Below, piece by piece: positions 8,066 to 15,352 of a stretch of 48,589 nucleotides of DNA (position 1 is the stretch's first letter; the number at the start of each line of letters is the position of its first letter). The DNA lies in the NCBI GenBank assembly GCA_025963485.1, contig JAOQAO010000123.1:1-48589 (forward strand), given 5' to 3'. Origin of the DNA: Bacteroidota bacterium. GTDB taxonomy: Bacteria > Bacteroidota > Bacteroidia > Chitinophagales > LD1. Position numbers and translations under genes: made by a program. The notes under the pieces are model-generated. The model was not told where the DNA came from. It made no database searches and worked only from the letters and a program-made list of their open reading frames with translations.

Positions 8066-8839
8066 ATGAAAAGAATATTACTTACACTCACCCTTACCCT
8101 ATTTGTCGGTGGTCTAAGTACTTTCGCTGGTACTGAAAACCCAGAACAAGGCGGCAACAAATTCAAATTCGCACAGTTTGAAGCCACCGAAACCAGCTGG
8201 GATTACACCTCTCTTATCTACACTATCACTGATGCAGCAGGTCATGAGGTCAGCGTAGCTCCTTCACAGATCACATACGTGGTGCGTGACAAAGCCAGCA
8301 ACCCTATCTCTACCGGCAAGGGTATCTTCGTCAGCATCAATGATACCAGGATGCAATCTGAGGAAGACTACTCTATCACTTTCACCGCTACTATCAAGAA
8401 AGACAAGATATCTAAAACGATCTACCGCAAGGCTTCCGCCAAAAAACTCATCCTCAGGCAGCAAGGCAACTCTTTCTCATACAAGATGATGAGGCCTAAA
8501 TACAGCAGCCCGACTGACTATGAGAAGCTCAATATCGATGCATCTAATATGAGCGTAGAGGTGGCCTTTGCCGACTGCAAAGAGTGCAATACATTCAAAC
8601 TCGCGGGCAATGCTTCTCATGCTACGCTGACCGACCGTGATAGCTATGCACACTTCGAGAATATCGTAAACAGCATGATGGAGAAGGGCAAAAAGGTACA
8701 ACTGATGGTACAGCCTACTGTAAATCACAAAGACAATTCGGTTCGCTACGCACAAAGCTACTTTGAGGTGAGTCCTAATACACTGAAAGAAGTGGAAGTA
8801 GAAGCAGCTACTGCAGCCAAAGACGGAGGCGAAGAATAA
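8066..8839 (+). CDS. Secreted protein with CxxC pair, first of two tandem paralogs
   Basis: A 257-residue protein with a signal peptide (MKRILLTLTLTLFVGGLSTFA, cleavage near residue 21). It has no other membrane segment, so it is probably periplasmic or exported. Shared with the next gene are a SWDY motif near residues 44-47, a GKG-x-[FY]-V-[SN]-[IV] strand near residue 86, SEE[DN]Y, a KKAS-type segment near 123, RPK, and a C-x2-C pair (C171, C174) followed by a helix and a final strand region. The mainly beta, immunoglobulin-like look is an impression only. No known family was recognised. A terminator follows, so each paralog probably has its own transcript. Confidence 0.7.
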   Translation: MKRILLTLTLTLFVGGLSTFAGTENPEQGGNKFKFAQFEATETSWDYTSLIYTITDAAGHEVSVAPSQITYVVRDKASNPISTGKGIFVSINDTRMQSEEDYSITFTATIKKDKISKTIYRKASAKKLILRQQGNSFSYKMMRPKYSSPTDYEKLNIDASNMSVEVAFADCKECNTFKLAGNASHATLTDRDSYAHFENIVNSMMEKGKKVQLMVQPTVNHKDNSVRYAQSYFEVSPNTLKEVEVEAATAAKDGGEE

Positions 8840-8900: not shown

Positions 8901-9048
8901 AGTCATGAAAACCTTGCTGTTGCTACAGTTCTCTCCCCTATTGAATAGAAAATAAAAATAAACAAGCCTTTCATTGTAACATATAGTCCACGTTTTACGT
9001 AACCATGTACGCGTCCCTACGTAATACCTTATTATAAAACTATTGATA

Positions 9049-9819
9049 ATGAAAAATCTTACGCTTGCTTTCGCTTCTCTGATGCTCCTCTCCGGTTCTG
9101 CCTTTGCAGGAGGTACAGACGTCAAGGCTTCTTCACAGTTTCAATTTGTCGATCTCCAGGCTACACAGAATAGCTGGGACTACTCATATATGCACTACAA
9201 TGTCAAGGACCAGACCACCGGAGATGTGATCGAGGTTCCTTCATTCCTTATCAAATACGAGGTAAAAGATAATAGCGGCAAAATAGTCGCATCGGGCAAA
9301 GGCGCTTATGTCAATGTAGGTGATACCAAACTCGGCTCAGAAGAAAACTACACGATCAATCTCTCTACTATGATCAATGGCCAGCAGGTCAGCCAGTCTA
9401 TCGACAAGAAAGCTTCGCCTAAAAGGGTAGCTGTCAAGCTCGAAAGCAAAGGCGATGCAATGGCTAATGAGGCTCTGGCCAACTATAACTTCGAATATAC
9501 TTTCACACGTCCTAAATTTAACAATCCTGAAGTGGCTGAGAAAATACAACTCGATCCTAATGCGATCACCGTAGATGTATCAGTAGCTAACTGCCTCGGT
9601 TGCGCCACAGGCAGCCATATCCAACTCAAGGGTGACGCTGACTACAAAGCACTGGAGAATACCATCAAAGCAATGACCAAAGGCAACAAAGATGTGATCA
9701 TCGAACCATCTATCGCATTCAAAGGCGAGATATACAAGGACACAGACAACTACTATGCAGCCACTGCTAATAGCATTCGCGCCGTAGACGTCCTCGAGCC
9801 AGCTACTGCCGACAAATAA
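9049..9819 (+). CDS. Secreted protein with CxxC pair, second tandem paralog
   Basis: A 256-residue protein with a clear signal peptide (MKNLTLAFASLMLLSGSAFA, cleavage at about residue 20). It is collinear with the gene before it: SWDY (residues 42-45), GKGAYVNVGDTK, SEENY, DKKASPKR, RPKF, and the cysteine pair NCLGC (C182, C185). ATG at 9049 is used; an in-frame TTG lies 6 bp upstream. Identity with the neighbour is modest outside these motifs, so the duplication is old, and the cysteines have survived it. They could form a disulfide or bind metal. The function is unknown. Confidence 0.75.
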   Translation: MKNLTLAFASLMLLSGSAFAGGTDVKASSQFQFVDLQATQNSWDYSYMHYNVKDQTTGDVIEVPSFLIKYEVKDNSGKIVASGKGAYVNVGDTKLGSEENYTINLSTMINGQQVSQSIDKKASPKRVAVKLESKGDAMANEALANYNFEYTFTRPKFNNPEVAEKIQLDPNAITVDVSVANCLGCATGSHIQLKGDADYKALENTIKAMTKGNKDVIIEPSIAFKGEIYKDTDNYYAATANSIRAVDVLEPATADK

Positions 9820-9878: not shown

Positions 9879-10061
9879 ATGTCAAATGAGCACGTCCTTG
9901 CGATAAATTTTCCCCTTGAAAAATAAATAGCTGGATATTTATCCGAAGGATCCTGAGGAGAAGCAATCTGTATCTATAAGACAGGCGCTACCTGGCCCCT
10001 CGTTCATGGACATTTGGAGGTTCACTTGCGTTTCTTACCTTGTGCTACAATACTAATCTCA

Positions 10062-10592
10062 ATGGATACCACTACCCTCGAGCACAAAACCCAACGCATC
10101 ATCGACGAATATATCCGCGATCTTGATTCATATACTTATGAGCAGCTTCTTATACAGCCTGCGCCGGGTTCATGGTCCATGGGGCAGGTGTACATACATC
10201 TATGGATGAGTGCCAAAGGTTTTTTCTTTAAGAAAGCCGATCTCTGTCTGACCTCGGGAGATGGCACAGTGAGAGGCAAAGGCAAGAACTGGAAAGGCGT
10301 ACTGGTATTCCTAATAGGCAAAATGCCCACCATCAGGGTCAAAATGCCCGGACAGGTGGCTGTGGAGCCGCGTCAACCGGAATCAAAAGAACAGATCATC
10401 GCAAAGCTCACAGAGATCAGGCAACTCGCTTCTGATTATATCAAACAGATACCTTTCTCAGACCCGTCAATCAAGGCCCGTCATCCTTTTCTCGGTTATC
10501 TCAATACCGGCGAGTGGATCAGCCTCTGCAATATGCACTTCCATCACCATGAGGCGCAAAAAATCAGGATCAAAAAACATTTCAACCAGTAA
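10062..10592 (+). CDS. DinB-superfamily (DinB_2-like) four-helix protein
   Basis: A 176-residue soluble helical protein. Typical DinB features are the PAPGSWSMGQVYIHLW segment near residue 35, with a metal-ligand-type histidine, and the C-terminal cluster NMHFHHHEAQKIRIKK. These match the three-histidine arrangement of the DinB/YfiT metalloenzyme superfamily, which includes many thiol-dependent transferases. The start is set at MDTTTLEHK; an in-frame ATG 48 bp upstream adds a non-conserved stretch. Substrate unknown. It is a single-gene unit. Confidence 0.8.
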   Translation: MDTTTLEHKTQRIIDEYIRDLDSYTYEQLLIQPAPGSWSMGQVYIHLWMSAKGFFFKKADLCLTSGDGTVRGKGKNWKGVLVFLIGKMPTIRVKMPGQVAVEPRQPESKEQIIAKLTEIRQLASDYIKQIPFSDPSIKARHPFLGYLNTGEWISLCNMHFHHHEAQKIRIKKHFNQ

Positions 10593-10980: not shown

Positions 10981-12300
10981 TCACAATACCCACGGTATGA
11001 TCTTATACGGTACCAGCTGGCAATACTGCACCCACGACTCCCCGTATTTATTCCTGCACTTCGTATCATCGCGAAACGCGCGGTGCGTCAGCAGCACTAT
11101 GAGGAAGATCACATAGAAGTATGGCAGGAAAGCTCCCATGCCTGCTGCACAGCTCCAGAAAAATGCGGCCAGTATCTCCGGTAGATAGTGGAAGTGCCTG
11201 CTCACACCCCAGAAACCCGATGCCAACAGGATATTGGTCTTAGTGCTGCCATCCTCTGTGGTATACGGCGCATGTATCAGCACCGGCATGGCACCCCAGA
11301 TGGTCGTATCGCCATTAGTACTTCTCACAGACTGCCGCTGGTGATCGGCCCAGTAGTTTAGCCAGATAGAGACAAATCCCATCACAAATATCAGCGCAGC
11401 CATGGCATAGCCCATATCGGCGGGATGCTTCACCATATACATCACGGGCGAGGTATATACCGCAGGCACCCATACCAGGCAGCCCCAGCAGATCATAAAG
11501 CCGGCACGGTCCACTTGTATATCCATCGATTTCATATAACCACTCTCCCAGATGAAGAACTTGAACAGGTAGATAAAGATAAGCACAGCAGAAACAATGA
11601 TCCCCAGGTCGGCCGTTCCATAAATCTCCTTTTGCGCAAAGGCGAAAGATACAACGGCCAGCGCCCAGCCCGTCATACCAAAGCGGCAATTGGTAAACTG
11701 CTTGACATGTATGCCCGCTATCTGCGGGAAAAGCTCAGTGCCCCAGTAGTAATCAAAAATAAAATTACCAGTAGCAGAGTGGTCTGAAGAAGAAGGAAAG
11801 AACCTTCCTTTGAAATAAAGAAAGAGGCAAAAAGCCAGCGCACCAAAATTAAGCGCGCCCAGCAGGTCTCCCATATTATAGTAGATGATACCCGGTGAAA
11901 ATAGCTTCAGGTACACCGAGCAAAATAAGAACACGATAAAAGTAATGATGTAAGAAAGCAGGCCGTTATCCTTGTATTCCGGTTGGTTGCCTTTGGGAGT
12001 GATGGTGCCGTGATATTTTTTGCCCGGCAGCAGCCACATCATCAGCGCCTGCGCTATCGCGAAAACACCGATCATCCGCCACGCCATCGCACTGCCGAAA
12101 AACCGCGACAACCATACATCACTGATCTCCTGTAGAAATCCTTTCTGCCAGATCTCCTGCCCGAGCAGCGTCACGGAGCCGTCCAGATTGGCCATCGTGT
12201 GCCACATCAGCATCGCCGCAGGGGGCGTGATGACTACGAGCAATAAAGGAACAACCGTTCTGGTAAGGAAATTACTCCGCGTAGTGGACCATCCTGACAT
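10981..12300 (-). CDS. Sterol delta-7 reductase-like protein (DHCR7 / ERG4-ERG24 family)
   Basis: About 439 residues with roughly eight to ten membrane helices. Landmarks of the DHCR7 branch are present in order: LLPGKKYHGTITPKGNQPEY, PSSSDHSATGNFIFDYYWG, FTNCRFGM, DRAGFMICWGCLVWVPAVYT, NYWADHQRQ, SGFWGVSRHFHYLPEIL, and the C-terminal RDDTKCRNKYGESW...VPYKIIPW. These enzymes reduce the C7-C8 double bond of sterols with NADPH, which binds in the C-terminal half. By memory the pattern resembles the plant enzyme DWF5 closely. Start at MSGWSTTRSN gives a length near plant enzymes; an ATG 66 bp upstream is also possible. No other sterol-pathway enzyme is adjacent, so the substrate may be a scavenged sterol or another polycyclic lipid. 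Transfer from a eukaryote is possible. Confidence 0.9.
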   Translation of the reverse strand: MSGWSTTRSNFLTRTVVPLLLVVITPPAAMLMWHTMANLDGSVTLLGQEIWQKGFLQEISDVWLSRFFGSAMAWRMIGVFAIAQALMMWLLPGKKYHGTITPKGNQPEYKDNGLLSYIITFIVFLFCSVYLKLFSPGIIYYNMGDLLGALNFGALAFCLFLYFKGRFFPSSSDHSATGNFIFDYYWGTELFPQIAGIHVKQFTNCRFGMTGWALAVVSFAFAQKEIYGTADLGIIVSAVLIFIYLFKFFIWESGYMKSMDIQVDRAGFMICWGCLVWVPAVYTSPVMYMVKHPADMGYAMAALIFVMGFVSIWLNYWADHQRQSVRSTNGDTTIWGAMPVLIHAPYTTEDGSTKTNILLASGFWGVSRHFHYLPEILAAFFWSCAAGMGAFLPYFYVIFLIVLLTHRAFRDDTKCRNKYGESWVQYCQLVPYKIIPWVL

Positions 12301-12530
12301 ATGTAGTATTTTAGGCAATAAACCTAAATCCCTGACCATTTCCAAATCCATTCGGCGAAAGGTCACTTTCTGTATTACCTCGTATGTATTGATCCGTGAC
12401 CATCCGTTTTGTATTCACCCTGTTATCCGTGTCATCCGTGTGCCCTGTATCTGTATCAGGACTAGCACAATAAATCTCCTCCCCTATACGTCCTTAAAAT
12501 CATTACTTTAGCCACCAAAATTTTCGGGTT

Positions 12531-13994
12531 TTGAAACGAATACTTGCCTCCTTCATATTATGCTTTACTGTTTTGAGCCTTTGGGCACAGGCTGCGGCGC
12601 CTGACAGGGCCAATTGGACACTCGAGGAGTGCATCCGCTATGCCACCGAGAATAACATCTCTGTCAAACAGGCAGACCTATACAAGCGCATCAGCAAGAA
12701 CACGTACCTGCAGAGCAAACTCAACCTGCTGCCCACTATCTCTGCCAATGCCAGTTATAACTTCAACTATGGCAACTCGATCAACCCGACCACTTATACA
12801 TATGTACAGGAAAACTCCCAGAGTTTCTCGCCAAATCTGCAAGCCAATCTCAACCTATTCACGGGCCTGCAGCAGCTTCATAGCATAAAGAAAGACAAGT
12901 ATGACCTGATGGCATTCTCTTTTGACTATTCTGCCACGGTCAATAGTACTGTGCTGACAGTGACCAATCTATTTCTGCAGGTGGTGGTCAATAAAGAGCT
13001 GGTCAAAGTAGCCCAGAAACAGGTCGACCTCTCTCAGTCTCAGCTCGACGTGCAGAAAAGGCGCATAAGCGCCGGTACGATGGCAGAGGCATCGGTGTAT
13101 GACTTTGAGGCGCAGCTCGCCCGCGACCAGGCATCGCTGATCGCACAGCAGAATGCAGAAGCTATTTCCAATATCACACTGAAAATAGCCCTCCAGCTCC
13201 CGGACAATGCTCCCTTTGACATCATTATCCCGGAGGTCAACGTAGGCTCGGTAATGGCATTTGGCAATCTCAATCCGCACGAGATCTTCCAGTATGCACT
13301 GTCCACACAGCCCGTCATTCAGGCGGCACAGGCGCGTGTCACGAGTTCTCATTATAGCGTCAAAATAGCAAAAGGCTCTCTCAGCCCTACTATTTACATG
13401 AGCGCTTTCTCGCATGACAACTGGTTCAACCTCGCCTCACAGCCAGACCAGATCAGCTACTCACTGGCCGCCGCCACTGCGAGCCGCCCTATATTCAGTG
13501 ACCTTACCTCGGCTCCCACTATTGTGGGTTATGACCGCCTCCAGATCAACTATACGACAAAACCGGTCTCCTTCTCCGATCAGTTCAAAAACAATCTTGC
13601 CAATGGATTTTCATTTAATATGAACATACCCATCTTTACCGGCTGGCAGAAGATGACCAATATCGCCAATAGCAAACTGCAGTACCAGATACAGCAGCTC
13701 AATCTCGAATCTGCCAAAAACGGCCTGGAGCGCGACATCTATCAGTCATACGCCAATGCCAAAGGGAATGCAGAATCGTACAGCGCCAATCTCAAAGCGC
13801 TCGAAGCTTCGCAGAAAGCATTTGAAACAACGACTAAAAGGTATAACGCCGGGCTGGCTACCAACTATGACCTGGAGATATCCAAATCAAACCTCGCCCG
13901 TGCAGAGTCCGGTGCCGTACAATCTAAATACAATTACATTTTTAGCGTGAAAGTCCTTGATTTCTATCAGGGCAAGCCCATCACATTAAACTAA
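12531..13994 (+). CDS. TolC-family outer membrane efflux protein
   Basis: A 487-residue protein with a signal peptide (LASFILCFTVLSLWAQA) and a TTG start; no ATG fits better. The mature protein has two OEP repeats: an N-terminal WTLEECIRYATENNISVKQADL motif, long alpha-helical coiled-coil regions (about 165-225 and 400-465), and beta-strand segments with alternating aromatic residues such as SFSPNLQANLNLF and FSFNMNIPIFTGW. It would form the trimeric outer membrane channel of a tripartite exporter. The adaptor gene starts 5 bp after its stop. The inner membrane pump is not in this operon. Confidence 0.92.
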   Translation: MKRILASFILCFTVLSLWAQAAAPDRANWTLEECIRYATENNISVKQADLYKRISKNTYLQSKLNLLPTISANASYNFNYGNSINPTTYTYVQENSQSFSPNLQANLNLFTGLQQLHSIKKDKYDLMAFSFDYSATVNSTVLTVTNLFLQVVVNKELVKVAQKQVDLSQSQLDVQKRRISAGTMAEASVYDFEAQLARDQASLIAQQNAEAISNITLKIALQLPDNAPFDIIIPEVNVGSVMAFGNLNPHEIFQYALSTQPVIQAAQARVTSSHYSVKIAKGSLSPTIYMSAFSHDNWFNLASQPDQISYSLAAATASRPIFSDLTSAPTIVGYDRLQINYTTKPVSFSDQFKNNLANGFSFNMNIPIFTGWQKMTNIANSKLQYQIQQLNLESAKNGLERDIYQSYANAKGNAESYSANLKALEASQKAFETTTKRYNAGLATNYDLEISKSNLARAESGAVQSKYNYIFSVKVLDFYQGKPITLN

Positions 13995-13999
13995 GGCAG

Positions 14000-15352
14000 A
14001 TGAAGAATAAAAAGCCATGGATCATTGGCGGCATCATATTGATAGTGCTGGTCATCATCGGGATGAACGGCAAAAAGAAAGGCTGGTTCAACGGCGGCAA
14101 TGCAAAACAGGTAGCTGCTGAGAAAGCGCAATCGCGCACTATCCTCGAGACCGTGACAGCCAGCGGCAAGATACACTCTGAGACAGAAGTGAAGGTCAGC
14201 TCCGAGGTATCCGGTGAGATCATCCTGCTCAATGTCAAAGAAGGAGACAGCGTCAAAAAAGGCGACCTGCTCCTCGAGATCAATCCCGTGATATATGAAT
14301 CTATGGTCAGCCAGTCAGAGGCTGGCGTGAGCCAGGTACGGGCCAACCGCATGGCCGCCGAGGCGACCTACAAAAGCAGCAAAGTACTCTACGACCAGGC
14401 TGTCATCTCCTTCAACCGCCAGAAGCAACTCCACGATGAGAAGATCATCTCCGATGCCGACTTCGATCTCGCTCTCAATACATTGAAAAATGCTGAGACC
14501 ACGCTCGCCACGACCAAGGAGCAGATGAATGCCGCCATGTATACTGTCAATAGCAGTGAAGCACAACTAAAACAAGCCCATGACAACCTGGTCAAGACTC
14601 GCATCTACGCGCCGATGACAGGCATCGTCTCCCTCTGCAGTGTCAAGCTCGGCGAGCGGGTGGTAGGTACGGCGCAGATGGCAGGTACGGAGCTGATCCG
14701 CATAGCTGATCTCGATCACATGCAGGCCGAGGTAGACGTGAGCGAAAACGATGTACTCAAAGTAAAGGTCGGCGACACGGCATCCGTAGAGGTCGACGCT
14801 TATCTCAATAAAAAATTCACAGGGGTAGTATCTGAGATCGCATATTCCTCTTCTACATCCACTGCGATAGTTTCCACATCACAGGCTATCAATTTCTCCG
14901 TCAAGGTGAAACTCGTCAAAGACTCCTACGCACAGCTGGTGGACCCCGCTCACGGCCTCAAGTATCCATTCCGGCCGGGCATGTCGGCCACAGTCGATAT
15001 CCGGACCAATGCTAAAGCGAATATCCTCACGGTACCGATACAGTCTGTCACTACCCGCGAGAATAAAGACAGCACAAATCACAAAGACAATACGGCTGAC
15101 ACAGATGATAATATCTCCAAAGACAAAAAGAAAGTACAGGAGGTTGTCTTCCTCGTAGACAATGGCAAAGCAAAAGCGGTCAATGTCAAAACGGGCATAC
15201 AGGACGCCAACTATATAGAGATCACATCAGGGATCAAAGACGGAGACATGGTCATCAAGGCGCCATTCAAGCTCATCTCCAAGACCCTGGAGACCGGCGA
15301 TAAGATCGAAATGGTCAGCGAAAAGTCGCTCTTCAAGGACGACGCGAAGTAA
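14000..15352 (+). CDS. HlyD/MacA-type periplasmic adaptor (membrane fusion protein)
   Basis: A 450-residue protein with one N-terminal membrane anchor (residues 6-23). It then has a biotinyl-lipoyl-like half (VTASGKIHSETEVKVSSEVSGEIILLNVKEGDSVKKGDLL), an alpha-hairpin of about residues 95-195, the second lipoyl half (TRIYAPMTGIVSLCSVKLGERV), and beta-barrel and membrane-proximal domains. A lysine/aspartate-rich loop near residues 355-380 is a variable insertion. Adaptors of this type usually serve a MacB-like ABC transporter or an RND pump, but the gene after it is an unrelated secreted protein. The pump must be encoded elsewhere. Confidence 0.9.
   Translation: MKNKKPWIIGGIILIVLVIIGMNGKKKGWFNGGNAKQVAAEKAQSRTILETVTASGKIHSETEVKVSSEVSGEIILLNVKEGDSVKKGDLLLEINPVIYESMVSQSEAGVSQVRANRMAAEATYKSSKVLYDQAVISFNRQKQLHDEKIISDADFDLALNTLKNAETTLATTKEQMNAAMYTVNSSEAQLKQAHDNLVKTRIYAPMTGIVSLCSVKLGERVVGTAQMAGTELIRIADLDHMQAEVDVSENDVLKVKVGDTASVEVDAYLNKKFTGVVSEIAYSSSTSTAIVSTSQAINFSVKVKLVKDSYAQLVDPAHGLKYPFRPGMSATVDIRTNAKANILTVPIQSVTTRENKDSTNHKDNTADTDDNISKDKKKVQEVVFLVDNGKAKAVNVKTGIQDANYIEITSGIKDGDMVIKAPFKLISKTLETGDKIEMVSEKSLFKDDAK

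Follow-up and report, generated by a model that had tools for sequence, protein, structure and literature searches.

We found an intact sterol reductase gene of the ERG4/ERG24 superfamily, assigned by its sequence to the delta-7 (DWF5-like) branch of the bacterial members, in a Bacteroidota lineage. The gene is accessory there, occupying a fixed site in some members of the genus and missing from that site in others. It lies in the window, i.e., the whole stretch of 48,589 nucleotides analyzed here (contig JAOQAO010000123.1 of assembly GCA_025963485.1), whose genome (G000) is 91% complete in 279 contigs. The most likely reading, which we hold at slightly better than even chances, is a joint one: the protein would be a delta-7 reductase acting on scavenged external sterols, encoded by an accessory gene of a cycloartenol-capable lineage. 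What is new is the phylum, the presence and absence at a fixed site, and the coexistence with a gene cluster of cycloartenol type; in the open-licence PMC papers we found no earlier report of the delta-7 branch in Bacteroidota. Cycloartenol in Bacteroidota (PMC4919349) and bacterial cholesterol synthesis in Myxococcota (PMC10202945) were already known.

The reductase gene and its product

The gene occupies positions 10981-12300 on the minus strand as an intact open reading frame of 439 codons (439 aa) from the ATG at 12300, the start that matches most orthologs and gives the same length. A longer frame (10981-12366, minus strand), read from its first GTG at 12366, spans 461 aa; the additional 22 codons (12301-12366, minus strand) are probably not translated, with orthologs mostly opening at the ATG and the predicted structure showing a pLDDT of 30-34 over residues 1-30. 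The product matches the PF01222 profile at 232.7 bits (E 9e-69, cut-off 27) over positions 18-431 of 432, a type of match that is absent from 14 control genomes; an NCBIfam search returned no match for it. Compared with the loci L008 and L009, dN is ~0.15 and dS ~1.4 (dN/dS ~0.1), and the gene is under purifying selection. The protein is, from these sequence features and the trees below, a genuine member of the ERG4/ERG24 superfamily with a predicted function, belonging among bacteria to the delta-7 branch. A sequence-only reading of the same DNA had called a DHCR7-type reductase with exactly these coordinates, and the intact frame and profile match bear it out, as the motif described next does for its claim that the C-terminal landmark region is kept.

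The C-terminal stretch of the superfamily, R-D-D..C..KYG..W, is found in the window protein as the family motif RDDTKCRNKYGESW (11032-11073, minus strand; residues 432-445 of the longer frame), which aligns to RDDAMCLAKYGEDW of the bacterial C14 reductase MaSR1. Seven of its residues (R432, D433, C437, K440, Y441, G442 and W445) are invariant in an alignment (A1) of the Bacteroidota, Legionella, Coxiellaceae, chlamydial and spirochaete proteins, as is Y266, which is aligned to the membrane Tyr241 of MaSR1. We take the catalytic and NADPH-related roles of the motif residues and Y266 (the Tyr/Asp roles) to be those given by the structural work on MaSR1. An AlphaFold model of the window protein, built on an 11-row alignment (pLDDT 78, pTM 0.79), displays the multi-pass helical fold of MaSR1, whose structure (4QUV) is its sole strong match among solved structures (E 7e-21, TM 0.76/0.88). 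The protein would be a multi-pass membrane sterol reductase belonging to the delta-7 (DWF5/DHCR7-like) branch, for which we infer NADPH-dependent C7 reduction. By analogy with MaSR1, its substrate would move in laterally from the membrane, the C-terminal motif would bind NADPH at the cytosolic face, and a hydride would be passed to one ring carbon, with the proton coming from a conserved Tyr/Asp pair.

Relatives and phylogenetic position

Short peptide patterns run against 84,980 prokaryote genomes recovered 31 loci, namely 13 from Bacteroidota with best-segment identities to the window protein of 65-78%, 17 from Legionella, Coxiellaceae, other gammaproteobacteria and chlamydiae (49-54%), and a single spirochaete locus (58%). 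Identity to the window protein is 65-80% among the Bacteroidota orthologs (the nearest 80%), 50-58% for the Legionella, Coxiellaceae, chlamydial and spirochaete relatives, and only 31% for MaSR1. In maximum-likelihood trees, the window protein falls inside a 19-row Bacteroidota clade (support 100/100) with the spirochaete protein as its sister (99/95 and 96/94 in two trees), and groups with the Legionella, Coxiellaceae and chlamydial delta-7 homologs apart from C14 reductases; the larger bacterial delta-7 clade excludes MaSR1 in both trees (100/99 or better). The kinship with amoeba-associated bacterial homologs that had been proposed from the sequence is thus recovered, at 50-54% identity and as one delta-7 branch. 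The same reading had set against itself a broad, vertically inherited bacterial clade with another substrate, which holds only by half: a broad Bacteroidota clade exists, but the gene is accessory within the genus.

These trees bear on the alternative that the window protein is a C14 sterol reductase of the ERG24/MaSR1 type rather than a delta-7 enzyme, which we consider very improbable: the fold is common to C14 and C7 reductases and the only close solved structure is that of a delta-14 reductase, but MaSR1 lies outside the clade of the window protein, the identity to it is 31% versus 50-58% to the bacterial delta-7 branch, and CYP51, the source of a delta-14 substrate, was not found in the carrier genomes (see below).

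Three loci from other families of the same order (L136, L137 and L138 in G134, G163 and G124, respectively; 48% identity) are separate from the window clade, and a single clade for every Bacteroidota copy is therefore rejected (p = 0.024); they constitute a second lineage of delta-7-branch reductases within the order. The spirochaete metagenome-assembled genome with the nearest non-Bacteroidota relative also displays a 428-bit PF01222 protein (L195; G029:C24:24770-26020), which is far nearer the Pfam model than any other bacterial match of this analysis.

The Arabidopsis DWF5 and animal DHCR7 rows are provisional sequences that give leads, not tests. In these comparisons, the window protein has 48% identity to DWF5 and 35% to animal DHCR7, in keeping with the plant likeness that had been noticed in the sequence. 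The provisional DWF5 is 51.9% identical to a Legionella homolog (L027); the published identity between plant DWF5 and the L. drancourtii protein is 52.03% (PMC2667531). In the tree, this provisional DWF5 row joins the bacterial clade, and bacterial monophyly relative to it, as the one plant row, is not rejected by the test (AU p = 0.26). Strong plant likeness would also suit a contig from contamination or a gene acquired recently from a eukaryote, and eukaryote-to-bacteria transfer has been proposed for the Legionella gene (PMC2667531). Recent eukaryotic transfer is nonetheless largely refuted, and we find it, like contamination, hardly credible: several independent assemblies from the genus place the gene in the same syntenic context, its GC3 is 0.63 with 0.61-0.66 in its neighbors, and the 19-row Bacteroidota clade has full support.

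A viral source for the reductase was considered and rejected: two scans of viral contigs and a phage collection yielded no relative, and Foldseek against viral structures returned nothing under E 0.001. A mimivirus homolog is known. Among plasmids, the only match (29%) is in Planktothrix. The Planktothrix agardhii plasmid p2 (L225; NZ_LR882940.1, 29303-54298) carries an apparently near-complete sterol cluster, with a prenyltransferase/squalene oxidase repeat protein, squalene synthase, several P450s (one CYP51-like), three Rieske proteins, a PF01222 reductase and an emopamil-binding protein.

An accessory gene at a fixed insertion site

The insertion site is bordered on one side by a DinB-like gene (10014-10592, plus strand; PF12867) and on the other by a TolC-like outer membrane gene (12531-13994, plus strand; PF02321, TIGR01844), which is adjoined by an HlyD/RND adaptor gene (14000-15352, plus strand; TIGR01730, 161 bits) by means of which the empty sites were located. 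The DinB-like and TolC-like borders are conserved in six genomes, with the site being occupied in G000 and in G105 (the same genome as the congener G002), where the reductase lies at the same place between DinB-like and TolC-HlyD, and empty in four congeners that keep the borders and lack the reductase (G114, G121, G183 and G199), two of which (G114 and G121) are cyclase-positive. Another genome (G001; L008) has the TolC-HlyD side of the site in common. In the sister genus, the reductase displays other conserved neighbors, namely an RmlD-like reductase, an endonuclease/phosphatase-family protein and a PTPS-like protein. Given the empty sites, two of them in cyclase-bearing genomes, and the different neighbors in the sister genus, the gene appears to come and go at particular sites without being bound to the cyclase. 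The DinB-like, TolC and HlyD neighbors uphold the earlier observation that no sterol-pathway genes adjoin the reductase in the window, and we rejected a sterol operon around it, the sister-genus neighborhood being non-sterol as well. Two adjoining paralogs of ~257 aa (8066-8839 and 9043-9819), which are apparently secreted and without a Pfam match, are conserved beside the insertion site in congeners.

Sterol-pathway genes in other parts of the genome and in its relatives

A partial sterol machinery is present in G000. One of its contigs (C173) carries, truncated at the contig edge, the C-terminus of a squalene epoxidase (C173:2-352, 89.6 bits), behind which lie an HMG-CoA reductase (PF00368) and a GHMP-kinase-like gene (L040:2-2948), the latter named by eye and without a Pfam match. 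The congener G002 has the order cyclase, squalene synthase, epoxidase, HMG-CoA reductase and GHMP-kinase-like gene, the last three of which C173 matches. An oxidosqualene cyclase was not found in the G000 contigs by profile-family searches; because C173 corresponds to the last three genes of the G002 order, we infer that the cyclase probably lies in an assembly gap, and its true absence is doubted because the contig ends within the operon. The sequence-only reading had noted that most Bacteroidota make no sterols, but a lack of sterol synthesis in this genome is not supported, in view of an epoxidase fragment in the same order as in a congener with squalene synthase and a cycloartenol-type cyclase; of the two genes it had named for a genome search, the epoxidase was recovered as this fragment and the cyclase was not found in G000, though it is in G002.

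Epoxidase and cyclase are both present in six of 13 close Bacteroidota relatives; matches to squalene epoxidase in the gammaproteobacterial relatives are weak (<43 bits) and were not accepted as real. Tyr, His and Ile at three product-determining sites mark cycloartenol synthases (PMC4919349), and Tyr381/His449/Ile453 are found in 21 of the 21 cyclase loci with both motifs readable, some of these loci being repeat entries of one genome; the cyclase L186, with one motif unreadable, has a valine. Cycloartenol-type residues occur in at least three families of the order. The cluster of cyclase, squalene synthase and squalene epoxidase is conserved (L040, L091/L092, L047/L090, L086-L089 and L093-L095), and is followed in the congeners by the HMG-CoA reductase and the GHMP-kinase-like gene.

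G000 also codes for a second, shorter PF01222 protein (C92:24928-25971; L002:1432-2547; 371 aa, 156 bits), and proteins of this C92 type form a separate group across several families of the order. The corresponding match contains stop codons in some genomes (e.g., G003, G162 and G031), which suggests that this group is decaying there.

Distribution, missing steps and the substrate

Across 299 genomes of the order, with a full-length branch copy taken as 200 bits or more, the reductase is found in 21 genomes (17 of them in the window's family) and the cyclase in 24. Order-wide, the cyclase is present in 11 of 21 carriers versus 13 of 278 others (p = 1.6e-8, not corrected for relatedness and mostly from one family). 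Within the family, it is present in 10 of 17 carriers versus six of eight non-carriers (Fisher p = 0.66, with five fragmentary genomes left out and relatedness uncorrected), and here the presence of the reductase does not track the cyclase. Seven carriers (G003-G006, G009, G011 and G013) lack both epoxidase and cyclase.

The P450s read from 14 carrier genomes have the I-helices AGHETT, AGNETT or AGNETS, none of them CYP51-like, with four P450 matches (one full-length, G009:C44) lying outside this set; the CYP51-like P450 of the Planktothrix plasmid cluster, which served as the positive control, reads AGQHTS. Matches to PF05241 (EBP) occur in only three of the 14 carrier genomes, and no true EBP was found among them. 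An EBP in G000 was rejected, its PF05241 protein (L129:9848-10345; G000:C238) being a 165-aa EXPERA-family membrane protein that matches TMEM97 (sigma-2 receptor; E 1.3e-5). This protein has relatives in G002 and G010, and in the latter its gene is followed by a short-chain dehydrogenase that by eye resembles one beside the C92 reductase of G000. Since CYP51 and EBP were not found in the 14 carriers, there is no known route to an internal delta-7 sterol in them.

An external substrate is preferred because carriers without cyclization exist and no internal delta-7 substrate is predicted. The enzyme would reduce the C7 double bond of delta-7 or delta-5,7 sterols scavenged from algae, fungi or protists, with delta-5,7 sterols (e.g., ergosterol or 7-dehydro-sterols) as candidates, and would be the product of an accessory fixed-site gene in a lineage that may separately make a cycloartenol-type triterpenoid. 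The seven carriers without epoxidase and cyclase, the failure to find CYP51 or EBP and the p-value of 0.66 within the family support external sterols as the most likely substrate; as a counterpoint, the order-wide enrichment of the cyclase hints at a link between the reductase and endogenous sterols. Another member of the superfamily, Coxiella CBU1206, works as a delta-24 reductase (PMC8787468), so that regiochemistry is not readable from superfamily membership.

The lineage's own triterpenoid is a possible but unlikely substrate: cycloartenol, made by squalene synthase, epoxidase and cyclase, would be reduced by the window protein, the C92 paralog or both, either at C24 or, following unspecified steps, at a ring bond, in a short plant-like sterol route. 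The epoxidase fragment of G000 in the G002 gene order, the cycloartenol-type residues of the 21 readable cyclase loci (PMC4919349), the strong order-wide association and the activity of CBU1206 on yeast sterols as a delta-24 enzyme (PMC8787468) argue for such a substrate, whereas the seven carriers lacking both genes, the two cyclase-positive congeners with an intact empty site, the absence of association within the family, the lack of a C7 double bond in cycloartenol and the fact that cycloartenol is the sole product of Fluviicola taffensis (PMC4919349) argue against it. Less probable still is a Bacteroidota family with a complete short plant-like route, in which the squalene synthase-epoxidase-cycloartenol synthase cluster would be followed by a DWF5-like and a second reductase without CYP51 or EBP; if true, its sterol end product would be new to bacteria. 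A non-sterol polycyclic or isoprenoid lipid, be it hopanoid-like or carotenoid-like, would suit the seven carriers without sterol cyclization, but is an improbable substrate as a hopene-type cyclase was not found in those seven either (PF13243 covers both kinds of cyclase) and the superfamily members characterized so far act on sterols.

Comparison with known systems

Bacterial delta-7 homologs are said to be confined to the amoeba-associated Legionella, Protochlamydia and Coxiella, where they have been explained by transfer from plants inside amoebae. With the delta-7 branch now seen in a Bacteroidota family, whose copies have a spirochaete protein as sister, the group is wider and the amoeba-only story weaker, and a set of bacterial sterol enzymes that was already known, though poorly understood, now reaches a new phylum. 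The occurrence of the branch in a lineage with a cycloartenol-type cluster makes it testable why orphan sterol reductases persist in bacteria, with one genus offering contrasts with and without the reductase and with and without the cyclase.

Plant DWF5 resembles the window protein (48% identity, from the provisional plant sequence), with HDRAGFYICWGCLVWVP-type and RHFHYVPEI-type motifs in common, but plants differ in having a full pathway with CYP51, an EBP-type isomerase and a C5 desaturase, of which CYP51 and EBP were not found in the carriers. MaSR1 (4QUV), a bacterial delta-14 sterol reductase, shares the fold (TM 0.76/0.88) and the C-terminal motif, and differs in its 31% identity, its clade and the double bond that it is expected to reduce. 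Coxiella Stmp1/CBU1206, a delta-24 reductase active in yeast, is likewise a eukaryote-like orphan sterol reductase, but is set apart by its description in the literature as another homology group. Fluviicola taffensis and other cycloartenol-making Bacteroidota share the phylum and the type of cyclase residues with the window lineage, whereas the published account of those bacteria records no homologs of genes for later sterol steps (PMC4919349). The closest parallels are the known orphan delta-7 homologs of Legionella drancourtii, Protochlamydia amoebophila and Coxiella burnetii (CBU1158) (PMC2667531, PMC8787468), which belong to the same superfamily and branch (the Legionella proteins L027 and L028 are 51-52% identical to that of the window) and are, like it, orphan enzymes without a surrounding downstream sterol pathway. 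Unlike these, the carriers described here are Bacteroidota in which the gene is present or absent at a fixed site in one genus, and G000 additionally has a squalene epoxidase and probably a cyclase.
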